From a virus, in IMG/VR virus record IMGVR_UViG_3300035181_001326, positions 1-20,982 of that record: a stretch of DNA of 20,982 nucleotides; one strand, given 5' to 3'. The notes under the pieces are model-generated. The model was not told the origin of the DNA, did no database searches, and was given only the letters and a program-made list of their open reading frames with translations. Within the stretch, counting starts at the first letter, position 1; each line of letters begins with the position of its first letter. Below, piece after piece: positions 7,690 to 16,830 of the stretch. Made by a program: the position numbers and the translations under genes.

Positions 7690-7771
7690 TTTTATTTTTC
7701 CTCTTGTTATATTATATATTTTAAACTAATTTAAAATATTGTCAACTATTATTTTAAACTTGTTTTATTTA
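7682..7771. repeat. Left copy of a 90-bp direct repeat flanking the DPPY methyltransferase
   Basis: This segment matches 8827-8916 with about 5 mismatches in 90 bases at a constant offset of 1145. It contains the start codon, ribosome site and promoter of the 66-residue gene plus the last 23 bases of the methyltransferase gene. Confidence 0.85.
7718..7745 (-). promoter_or_regulatory. Repeated accessory promoter, copy 3
   Basis: On the minus strand TTGACA (7740-7745), 16 bp, TAAAAT (7718-7723). The spacer ATATTTTAAATTAGTT is identical to that of copy 1. It drives the four-gene operon 7689 to 6849. Confidence 0.77.
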
Positions 7772-8834
7772 ATTCATTATCTATTCTTGATTTACTTATA
7801 TCTAAATACTCTTGTGATAAGTCAATACCAACATAATTAAAATTTTCTCTTATTGCTGCTTTACCAGTGCTACCACTACCATTAAAAGGATCTAATATAA
7901 TTCCACCAGGTGGAGTTACTAATCTACATAAATAAGCCATTAAATTAGTAGGTTTAACAGTTGGATGATTATTAGCTGATGGTTTAGTAGTAAATTTATC
8001 TTCTACACTTAATTTTTTAAATCCATCTACTGTTGATTGTGTATTATTTCCATTATATATTTTACCTTTTAATTCAAAATTATCTAACCCATCATTTCTA
8101 TCTTTTTTACTTGCTTTTGCACAATAAAAAAATCTTGAATTGTCATTTGGAAAAATCTTTTTTACTTCTTCACTACCATCATGAATTAAATTTGCTGGCC
8201 ATCTACCTAAATCATTATTTGGATTGGTTACATCGTTTTTTATATCTTTATATTCAACTCTACAATCATCTATATTTAATCCACCAACACCCCATTTTAA
8301 TACATTTTCAGAAACTGTTTTTTCAGATAAAGGCTTCCTTGCTAATACCATTGGCTCATGTGCTGGTTTTAAAGCTGTCCCCCATCCATCCCATTGTTTA
8401 GCTTCTTCTGTTGATGGTTTTAATTTTCCTAATCTTTTTTTATCAATTTCATCATAATTTGTATCTCTATATACTTGAACTTCTTGTAATTTACCATCTA
8501 TTGCTTTACTAATATTTAAATTTTTTGGAAAGCCTGTACCATATAACCATAGCATTTGATCGCGTATTTCAAACTCACTATTTTCAATTGCTACTGCCAT
8601 ACGATGATAAGTTCTTGAACCAGAAAATGCTATTAAATGACCACCTGGTTTTAATACTCTAAAACATTCACTCCATAATTCTTCATTATAAGCAATTTTA
8701 GTTGAGTCCCAAGATTTACCCATAAAACCAAGTTCATAAGGTGGATCTGTAACTATACTATCAAAATGGTTATCTGGAAATTGCTTTAATTCTTCTATTG
8801 AGTTACCTTTTATTAATTTATATTTATTACTCAT
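7749..8834 (-). CDS. Adenine (or N4-cytosine) DNA methyltransferase, beta-class DPPY type
   Basis: A 361-residue orphan methyltransferase of the N6/N4 family (Pfam PF01555). The catalytic motif DPPY is at 30-33 (SIVTDPPYELGF) and the S-adenosylmethionine-binding region DPFNGSGSTG at 315-324, near the C-terminus; this order defines the beta class. Further family signatures are FRVLKPGGHLIAF (58-70), WLYGTGFPKNLNISKAID (96-113) and HPTVKPTNLMAYLCR (290-304). DPPY favours N6-adenine as product. The central 115-285 region probably holds target recognition; the sequence methylated cannot be read from it. No restriction gene is adjacent. It has its own promoter copy and an AGAGGAAAAA ribosome site. 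Its role is likely protection from host restriction or regulation. Confidence 0.95.
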   Translation of the reverse strand: MSNKYKLIKGNSIEELKQFPDNHFDSIVTDPPYELGFMGKSWDSTKIAYNEELWSECFRVLKPGGHLIAFSGSRTYHRMAVAIENSEFEIRDQMLWLYGTGFPKNLNISKAIDGKLQEVQVYRDTNYDEIDKKRLGKLKPSTEEAKQWDGWGTALKPAHEPMVLARKPLSEKTVSENVLKWGVGGLNIDDCRVEYKDIKNDVTNPNNDLGRWPANLIHDGSEEVKKIFPNDNSRFFYCAKASKKDRNDGLDNFELKGKIYNGNNTQSTVDGFKKLSVEDKFTTKPSANNHPTVKPTNLMAYLCRLVTPPGGIILDPFNGSGSTGKAAIRENFNYVGIDLSQEYLDISKSRIDNELNKTSLK

Positions 8835-10753: not shown

Positions 10754-10776
10754 ATTAAATATATTTAAAATAAATA

Positions 10777-10805
10777 TTGACTTTTTTAAAATATAACCAT
10801 ATAAT
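10777..10805 (+). promoter_or_regulatory. Strong promoter before the non-coding RNA and capsid genes
   Basis: TTGACT (10777-10782), 17 bp, perfect TATAAT (10800-10805), one of the closest matches to sigma70 consensus on the + strand here. An eight-bp inverted repeat, ATAACCAT (10793-10800) and ATGGTTAT (10825-10832), straddles the -10 and the predicted start near 10812. Its half-site centres are 32 bp apart, about three helical turns, so it could be an operator. Confidence 0.75.
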
Positions 10806-10811
10806 CTATTA

Positions 10812-11100
10812 AGAAGAGTAGTAAATGGTTATGGAATACAGAGGATAACGCCAAACGAACATAACTTGTAATGCATAAGAATGTGGACAGATGCAACGGT
10901 GTGCGAATTATAGAGCCGGTCTAGGGTGTAATTAAAAGATATTGTGAATTTAGCCAAGCTTTTATATTGCATAAAGTCTGTAATAAAGTCAATTGCGACA
11001 GGGTATATTTTAATAAATATATTTTGATTGTTAAAAGATAAAGCGAAAAATCTTATAGGATTGCTTTGTCTTTAAGCTCTAGGGTATACAAATATAGATG
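10812..11100 (+). ncRNA. Putative structured RNA or long structured 5' leader
   Basis: From the promoter to the protease ATG at 11150 there is no credible gene on either strand (about 340 bases). Base composition departs sharply from the genome: I count 40 G+C in the 90 bases 10841-10930 (44%). Several helices can be drawn: TGCAT/ATGCA (10872-10876 with 10891-10895); AATTATAGA with TCTA and TAATT (10906-10914, 10920-10923, 10929-10933, GGGTG bulge, GCCGG loop); CTTTTAT/ATAAAG (10959-10976); TATATTT/AAATATA (11004-11021, four-base loop); and an 11-bp stem AAAGATAAAGC/GCTTTGTCTTT (11034-11044 with 11063-11073) enclosing AATC/GATT. ATACAGAG (10836-10843) could close the fold with CTCT and GTAT (11077-11087). 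No intrinsic terminator precedes the protease gene, so it may be a leader, or a processed RNA. I do not recognise it as tmRNA, RNase P, a known riboswitch or a group I intron. Confidence 0.6.
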
Positions 11101-11149
11101 AATTAAAAGAAGTACAAATAACTATAAAACAAACTAAAAGGGTTAAAAA

Positions 11150-15620: not shown

Positions 15621-16391
15621 ATGAGTCAAGCAGTCTTTGGAGCAGGAATAATGTGGGGAACACAATTACAAGATTCAACAGGTGCAGCAGTAGCTAATGC
15701 AACACCTATTATGATTGGTATATTGCAAAATGTATCAGTAGATATATCTTTTGAAACAAAAGAATTACATGGATCTGATAGTCAATTTGCTAAATATGTC
15801 GGTCGTGGTAAGGGAAAAATTGATTGTAAAGCATCTATGGGAACTATTAAAGGTGCTATATTTAATAGTTTGTTTTTTGGTCAAGGTCAAACAAGTGGTA
15901 TAAATTCAGTTGTTTATGATACTGTTGGTGCTGCTATTCCTGCAACTCCATACCAAATTACTGTAACACCACCATCATCTGGAACTTTTCAAACAGATTT
16001 AGGTGTTGTATATCAAGCGACCGGTTTACCTTTAACAAAAGTTGCATCTGCTCCAACAACTGGTCAATATTCAGTATCTAATGCTGGTATTTATACTTTT
16101 GCTGCTGCTGATACATTATTAGTTGTTTATATTAACTATTCTTATACAGCTACTTCTACAACTGCTGTTAAAAATACTGTAAAAAATATACCAATGGGTT
16201 ATTCTCCATCATTTTCAACTGAATTATATATGCCTTATGATGGTAAATCTTTGGTTCTTACATTAAACAAATGTATATCAAATAAATTATCAATATCAAC
16301 AAAATTAGATGACTTTATGATGCCTGAATTAGATTTTAGTGCTTTCGCTGATTCAGCTGGTAATGTTATGTCATGGGCTACAACTGAATAA
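15621..16391 (+). CDS. Major tail tube protein
   Basis: A 256-residue beta-rich protein rich in Gly, Thr, Ala and Ser, in the tube-protein slot immediately before the tail chaperones. VSVDISFETKELHGSDSQF (33-51) and YVGRGKGKIDCKASMGTIKG (54-74) resemble the core strands of siphophage tube subunits. The central part, about 105-185, includes an extra beta-type segment (TPYQITVTPPSSGTFQTDLG). The last third contains GYSPSFSTELYMPYDGKSLV and a C-terminal strand region. The ribosome site is AAAGGA. A strong terminator follows, isolating this abundant protein's transcript. Confidence 0.85.
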   Translation: MSQAVFGAGIMWGTQLQDSTGAAVANATPIMIGILQNVSVDISFETKELHGSDSQFAKYVGRGKGKIDCKASMGTIKGAIFNSLFFGQGQTSGINSVVYDTVGAAIPATPYQITVTPPSSGTFQTDLGVVYQATGLPLTKVASAPTTGQYSVSNAGIYTFAAADTLLVVYINYSYTATSTTAVKNTVKNIPMGYSPSFSTELYMPYDGKSLVLTLNKCISNKLSISTKLDDFMMPELDFSAFADSAGNVMSWATTE

Positions 16392-16417
16392 TAATTAAAA
16401 TAAATAAGTAAAAAATA

Positions 16418-16447
16418 AAAAGACATAAATTATTATGTCTTTTTATT
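16418..16447 (+). terminator. Intrinsic terminator after the tail tube gene
   Basis: AAAAGACATAA (16418-16428) and TTATGTCTTTT (16433-16443) form a perfect 11-bp stem with the four-base loop ATTA, running into a T-rich tail. The A-rich start of the stem means it could also act on the other strand. Confidence 0.85.
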
Positions 16448-16474
16448 TGATTTTTATTATTAATGCTTTATAAT
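16447..16474 (+). promoter_or_regulatory. Promoter for tail chaperones and tape measure
   Basis: TTGATT (16447-16452), 16 bp, perfect TATAAT (16469-16474), directly after the terminator and 35 bases before the chaperone ATG. Confidence 0.62.
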
Positions 16475-16509
16475 ATATTATAAACTTTACTTTACAAGGA
16501 AAAAAAGAA

Positions 16510-16830
16510 ATGACAAAATATAAAGGTTTTGAAATTGAATTAGGTGGTACTCGTTATGTATTCCCATCATTATCATTAGGTGCTGTTGAAAGATTACAAG
16601 ATAAAATTGATGCTGTAACTTCTAGCGATTCTCAAACAAACCAAATATCAGCAATTATTGATATAGCTCATGCTTCATTAAAAAGAAATTATCCAGATAT
16701 AACAAGAGATGATGTTGCTGATTTAATTGATGTATCAAATATTCAAACAATTTTTGTAAATATTATGTCAACTTCTGGAATGACAAATGTTAATAAAGAT
16801 GAGGTTGGTACAGCAGAAGCAAAAAAATAA
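16510..16830 (+). CDS. Tail assembly chaperone, short form (lambda gpG equivalent)
   Basis: A 106-residue chaperone that coats the tape measure during tail assembly. It starts MTKYKGFEIELGGTRYVFPS and contains LSLGAVERLQDKIDAV (22-37) and RNYPDITRDDVADLIDVSNI (57-76), as in phage tail chaperones. Its last codons GCA AAA AAA TAA contain a perfect A AAA AAA slippery heptamer, and the -1 frame beyond continues as coding sequence, so a second, longer product is made. Position between tail tube and tape measure is the standard one. Confidence 0.9.
   Translation: MTKYKGFEIELGGTRYVFPSLSLGAVERLQDKIDAVTSSDSQTNQISAIIDIAHASLKRNYPDITRDDVADLIDVSNIQTIFVNIMSTSGMTNVNKDEVGTAEAKK

Follow-up and report, generated by a model that had tools for sequence, protein, structure and literature searches.

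The question raised by this locus is what the gene-free stretch ahead of the phage protease gene encodes, and whether it acts on the head genes that follow. The window, meaning the whole stretch of DNA analysed, is 20,982 bases long with a G+C content of 26.7%, and carries genes for a terminase, a portal, a Mu F-like protein, an endolysin, an Rz1-like protein and an S78 protease, together with a gene at the capsid position whose product matches phage capsids. A preliminary description had proposed that the stretch is a structured RNA or a leader of the protease and capsid genes, fitting no known RNA class. In agreement with it, positions 10754-11149 hold no open reading frame of at least 60 amino acids; the longest frames lying wholly inside are 27 (plus strand) and 47 (minus strand) amino acids, and no conserved protein-coding frame was found. 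The G+C rise it had counted was reproduced (40 of 90 bases at 10841-10930 vs 26.7% for the window), and as many or more G+C bases were observed in 143 of the 20,893 90-base windows of the stretch. Elsewhere in the window we observed a tRNA-Thr (TGT) gene upstream of the terminase (164-237). Of 61 sampled genomes of Campylobacterota, the one phylum compared, 48 had a match to it, with a best identity of 85%. Two minus-strand DNA methyltransferase genes (1969-2850 and 7749-8834), of the EcoRI-type adenine and N6/N4 types, lie amid the plus-strand phage structural genes, and a third was found beyond the window in the longer contig of the same phage (G002).

Relatives of the stretch were found through the capsid gene. 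A capsid scan of viral contigs returned L019, whose capsid is 64% identical to that of the window and which has a non-coding gap at the equivalent place; the two gaps align, with an nhmmer E-value of 4.7e-14 when the window sequence was the sole query. Scanning bacterial genomes for the capsid returned L049, a contig within a metagenome-assembled genome (MAG) titled Campylobacterota bacterium, containing two copies of the RNA (1.4e-11 and 3.6e-11). Second copies were also observed in G002 (1.4e-25) and in the L019 phage, G001 (L148, 7.5e-38), giving a total of six distinct copies of about 270 bases, two in each of three related phages; further IMG/VR contigs were repeats of the window's phage and were left out of this count. 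The terminases of the two relatives are 70 and 74% identical to that of the window. The portal and Mu F-like proteins, encoded by separate genes in the window (4663-6815), both match a single open reading frame in the L019 phage, and likewise in L049.

Copies within a phage were 76, 64 and 73% identical, while identities between phages ranged from 50 to 63%. The core G+C fractions of the copy pairs were 0.34/0.33, 0.43/0.43 and 0.48/0.51, in surroundings of 0.27, 0.29 and 0.33. A tree joined the two L049 copies (support 100) and set the pair from the window's phage apart from all others (91); L019 and L148, whose likeness is weak (64%, vs 62-63% to the window's copies), were left unjoined. These identities and groupings suggest that copies have been homogenised in two of the phages, with the third unclear; the likeness would be accounted for by a partner in common or by gene conversion alone. 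The two L049 copies (L049:2070-2312 and 16280-16520) are alike for about 80 bases beyond the possible pseudoknot P7, and the L049 form of the RNA may therefore extend further. Just after P7, L019 and L148 have in common the 20-base AAGATCTAATTAAAGATCTA, a possible hairpin which by eye the other phages do not have.

Table 1. Features of the RNA locus; positions are those of the window unless a contig is named.
Feature	Position	Strand	Basis
Promoter-like site TTGACT-17-TATAAT	10777..10805	+	11/12 consensus matches
Structured non-coding RNA gene, copy 1	~10806..11095	+	homologues, covariation; ends approximate
Helix P1 (10827-10833 with 10860-10866) around conserved 26-nt loop 10834-10859	10827..10866	+	
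Helix P2 (10885-10888 with 10919-10922)	10885..10922	+	covariation
Helix P2a (10892-10894 with 10899-10901)	10892..10901	+	94.4% of 18 cells paired; one-sided changes only
Conserved motif GNGNGYGRATNNNAGAKC	10899..10916	+	6/6 copies
Helix P3 (10926-10932 with 10966-10972), variable-length hairpin	10926..10972	+	covariation
Motif AAGTCTG	10974..10980	+	identical in 6/6 copies (alignments)
Possible hairpin P4 (GTC/GAC)	10988..10999	+	by eye
Possible hairpin P5	11004..11021	+	own 0.83, swapped 0.49; hand-chosen strands, lenient test
Helix P6, the 11-bp stem of the preliminary description	11034..11073	+	83.3% of 66 cells paired
Possible pseudoknot P7 (11056-11059 with 11078-11081)	11056..11081	+	duplex energies
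Copy 2 of the window's phage	L147:18334-18604 in G002, outside the window	-	homology to copy 1

We examined base pairing across the six copies, a comparison resting on three phages of shared ancestry and on a structure derived from the same six sequences. In a plain MAFFT alignment, unfitted to any structure, the 11 pairs of P2, P2a and P3 were standard in 90.9% of 66 cells, while shuffled alignments gave 67.9% and none of 500 reached the observed value. An alignment fitted to a model, which leans towards structure, gave 13 pairs in four helices (P1, P2, P2a and P3; two of the pairs in P1), with 74 of 76 cells paired and ten of the 13 pairs changed on both sides, matched by none of 500 shuffles; slid registers paired at 25-59%. 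The strongest helix was P2, with all 24 cells paired and all four pairs changed on both sides (GGAC/GTCT, CCCT/AGGG, CCCC/GGGG, GCGC/GCGC, GAGC/GCTC and GCGC/GCGT in the six copies). All four tested pairs of P3 also changed on both sides; its cells were paired at 95.8% with model fitting and at 79.2% without it. MAFFT left the outer part of P1 unaligned; with the P1 loop delimited by hand, its flanks pair in 40 of 42 cells, compared with at most 34 in 2000 simulations. Helix strands and loops in several of these pairing tests were chosen by hand, which favours pairing. Comparison across the homologues shows the predicted helices P1, P2 and P3 to covary, and the structured RNA of the preliminary description is supported both by conservation in relatives and by covarying pairs.

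Other parts of the proposed fold fared less well. The 11-bp stem is present and kept in the relatives but barely covaries, with two of 11 pairs changed on both sides, and its level of pairing was reached by 173 of 500 shuffles. A pseudoknot of the P6 loop with the strand behind P6 is tentative: the mean duplex energy was -8.12 for own pairs vs -5.72 when swapped between phages and -5.10 with loops shuffled (sd 2.5, hand-chosen loops). The bulged hairpin drawn at 10906-10933 is not upheld: it forms all nine pairs in the window, yet across the five remaining copies just 19 of 45 cells pair. Nor is the closing pairing of 10836-10843 with 11077-11087: tested as the P1 loop against the strand behind P6, it gave a mean duplex energy of -8.98 for own pairs, vs -7.90 swapped between phages and -8.04 loop-shuffled (sd 3.0). 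Folding energy, proposed as a check, gave a z of -1.05 for 10806-11149, with 15 of 100 shuffles folding at least as well (33 of 100 for the reverse strand), and the six copies with tighter ends ranged from -0.23 to -2.50. The single-sequence fold is no better than chance, and folding energy alone proves nothing.

Known RNA families were searched with Rfam 15. The whole window returned only the tRNA at gathering score, and copy 1 had no match up to an E-value of 10; the other five copies had one or two matches each up to the same value, all far under threshold, with no family recurring, and none of the six reached the gathering score of any family. The GOLLD and ROOL models matched none of the six copies, and the pRNA model had no match in the window or copy 1. 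A likeness to cobalamin or T-box motifs, judged by eye, had no such Rfam match and was rejected. We describe the RNA as new relative to Rfam 15 and the literature searched, and claim this for that scope only.

Our model of the RNA (R1) matched one of 397 genomes sampled from the phylum Campylobacterota and one of 175 genomes of the family, in both cases the MAG holding the L049 phage; the motif pattern matched one of 398 genomes sampled from the order, and the capsid was present in one of 175 genomes of the family. These phylum, order and family samples overlap, and in scans exceeding 40 genomes the filters were stricter and can lose weak matches. The phage contig may have been binned with the Campylobacterota MAG without infecting that organism. 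In more distant phages, many of them fragments, model R1 had no match in 30 records, none in 89 loci and none at an E-value of 0.001 in a further 15 records (one at 0.12). Two matches among 29 loci, at 10.4 and 9.8 bits, were rejected, as one falls inside a coding frame and most of P2 is missing from the second. Two whole GenBank phages and one partial record contained no RNA match. In viral contigs, a longer pattern including GNGNGYGRATNNNAGAKC matched nine stretches, each belonging either to the window's phage or to that of L019. The pattern TATAGGATTGCTNTGTC also found nine there, four from the known phages and five judged by eye to be chance because nothing beyond the pattern matched, and a strict pattern had no match in genome contigs. 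We ran blastn against phages for three copies: window copy 1 matched 35 records, of which the best 20 had E-values of 0.03-0.4 and were taken as chance, as were two records at 0.02 for L148, while L049 copy B matched none. Searches against plasmids with window copy 1 and L049 copy B also found none.

The position of the copies differed among the phages. Copy 1 precedes the protease gene in the window's phage and the L019 phage, so two of the three phages show the proposed placement ahead of the protease and capsid genes, but L049 has no copy there, with 48 bases between the protease gene and a small open reading frame (Rz1-like by eye). Both L049 copies are transcribed against the head genes; copy B is followed by only opposite-strand genes for 4.7 kb, while a same-strand 148-amino-acid frame begins 134 bases downstream of copy A. 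Copy 2 of the window's phage is followed about 100 bases downstream by a same-strand phosphoesterase gene (calcineurin-like), which is also found in L049, 1.4 kb after copy A and on its strand. In G001 the gene adjoining copy 2 is convergent, and only a truncated frame at the contig end resembles the phosphoesterase start (by eye). The nearest downstream gene was on the same strand for four of the six copies, and its identity varied among the phages. Comparison of the contigs shows homology, two copies per genome and a placement and orientation that are not constant with respect to the head genes.

Other genes were observed near the copies. A GIY-YIG gene lies beside copy 2 in two of the three phages (L147:18795-19217 and L148:492-914), and in the third it is 3.8 kb away from one; it is SegE-type in G002, with the relatives linked by blastp. 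Near the two ends of G002 are frames resembling ankyrin repeats by eye (L146:157-1606 and L147:19330-19809).

The site put forward as a near-consensus promoter in the preliminary description is present, as a promoter-like sequence, ahead of copy 1. Sites of this class are common in AT-rich DNA of this kind and are not enriched in the region (8 found vs 7.5 expected). Taking the best-scoring site in the 130 bases before each of the other five copies, we found TATAAT in four and TAATAT in one, with spacings of 16-17, so that, with this choice of sites in AT-rich DNA, a promoter-like site precedes all six copies and an exact TATAAT five of them.

Our preferred reading, to which we give a probability of roughly 0.55, is that 10806-11095 is an independently transcribed, structured non-coding RNA gene that acts in trans, belongs to a family outside Rfam and occurs in two copies per phage. 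Each copy would be transcribed from its own sigma-70-like promoter, and the RNA would most likely bind a phage or host protein, through contacts at the conserved P1 loop and the P2/P2a junction. We infer a trans-acting, probably protein-held RNA from the invariant loops, the promoter-like sites and the free position, and the varied position and opposed direction in L049 are compatible with trans action. The two copies may serve dose or different times of infection, and might be kept alike by one common partner. A further-reaching version is possible, and we offer it tentatively: an undescribed class of phage RNA that works as a machine or scaffold, plays a new biochemical part, is needed in two near-equivalent copies and co-evolves with one phage partner. 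Counting against the RNA gene are the folding energies near those of shuffled sequence, the small set of six sequences, the weakness of P6 and P7, the same-strand next gene of four copies, the frequency of promoter-like sites in DNA this AT-rich and the weak likeness between L019 and L148.

That same-strand gene, the promoter-like site ahead of each copy and the presence of two copies per genome would also be expected of a cis-acting leader, altering transcription or translation of whatever operon comes next in the manner of the HK022 put sites. We consider this unlikely, though still worth weighing, since a put-like element should have a same-strand gene after every copy, and L049 copy B, the convergent gene in the L019 phage and the differing downstream genes depart from this; a put site is also much shorter. 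The original proposal of a leader dedicated to the protease and capsid genes, regulating their expression, draws on the placement of copy 1 in two phages. A leader role here is doubtful because in L049 the protease is preceded by no copy, the two copies run against the head genes, and copy B faces 4.7 kb of opposite-strand genes; with second copies elsewhere and no fixed place before one same gene, we regard this specific form as improbable. A DNA element that forms hairpins, for instance one used in packaging or replication, could likewise occur twice per genome, but the G-U cells of P2 and P2a favour RNA (as DNA they would be mismatched), promoter-like sites lie upstream, and 180-odd bases of conserved helix and loop would be large for such a site, making it very improbable. 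Chance similarity or unstructured intergenic DNA would fit the folding energies and the lack of covariation in P6 but is refuted, unless the homologues are assembly artefacts, by the nhmmer match of L019 and by covariation that no shuffle equalled, leaving it the slightest of chances. A CsrA-type GGA sponge was also considered.

The locus also illustrates how a leader interpretation built on a single genome may not survive comparison with relatives. Strongly covarying phage RNAs that belong to no catalogued family give direct access to uncharted phage biology, and as this RNA is small, present twice per genome and has invariant loops, its partner could be revealed by experiment.

Several known systems resemble the RNA in part. 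The HK022 put sites also occur twice per phage near promoters, but they are short and act in cis, on the very transcript of which they are part, whereas L049 copy B here is followed by opposite-strand genes only over the next 4.7 kb. AbiF-type systems include a phage-encoded RNA that reportedly works with a protein, as proposed for the RNA here; among the genes annotated beside the copies, none was identified as Abi-type. The pRNA of phi29, a structured packaging RNA, is likewise phage-encoded, and the RNA here could similarly serve virion assembly, but pRNA is shorter and single-copy, and its model has no match here. GOLLD and ROOL are described as structured RNAs of phages and prophages of unknown function, with GOLLD members often longer than 800 nt and both often found near tRNA islands (PMC12286853). 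They differ from the RNA here, which is about 270 nt, occurs in two copies per phage and has its copy 1 10.6 kb from the window's tRNA; as structured, phage-encoded RNAs they are nevertheless the closest to it in kind.
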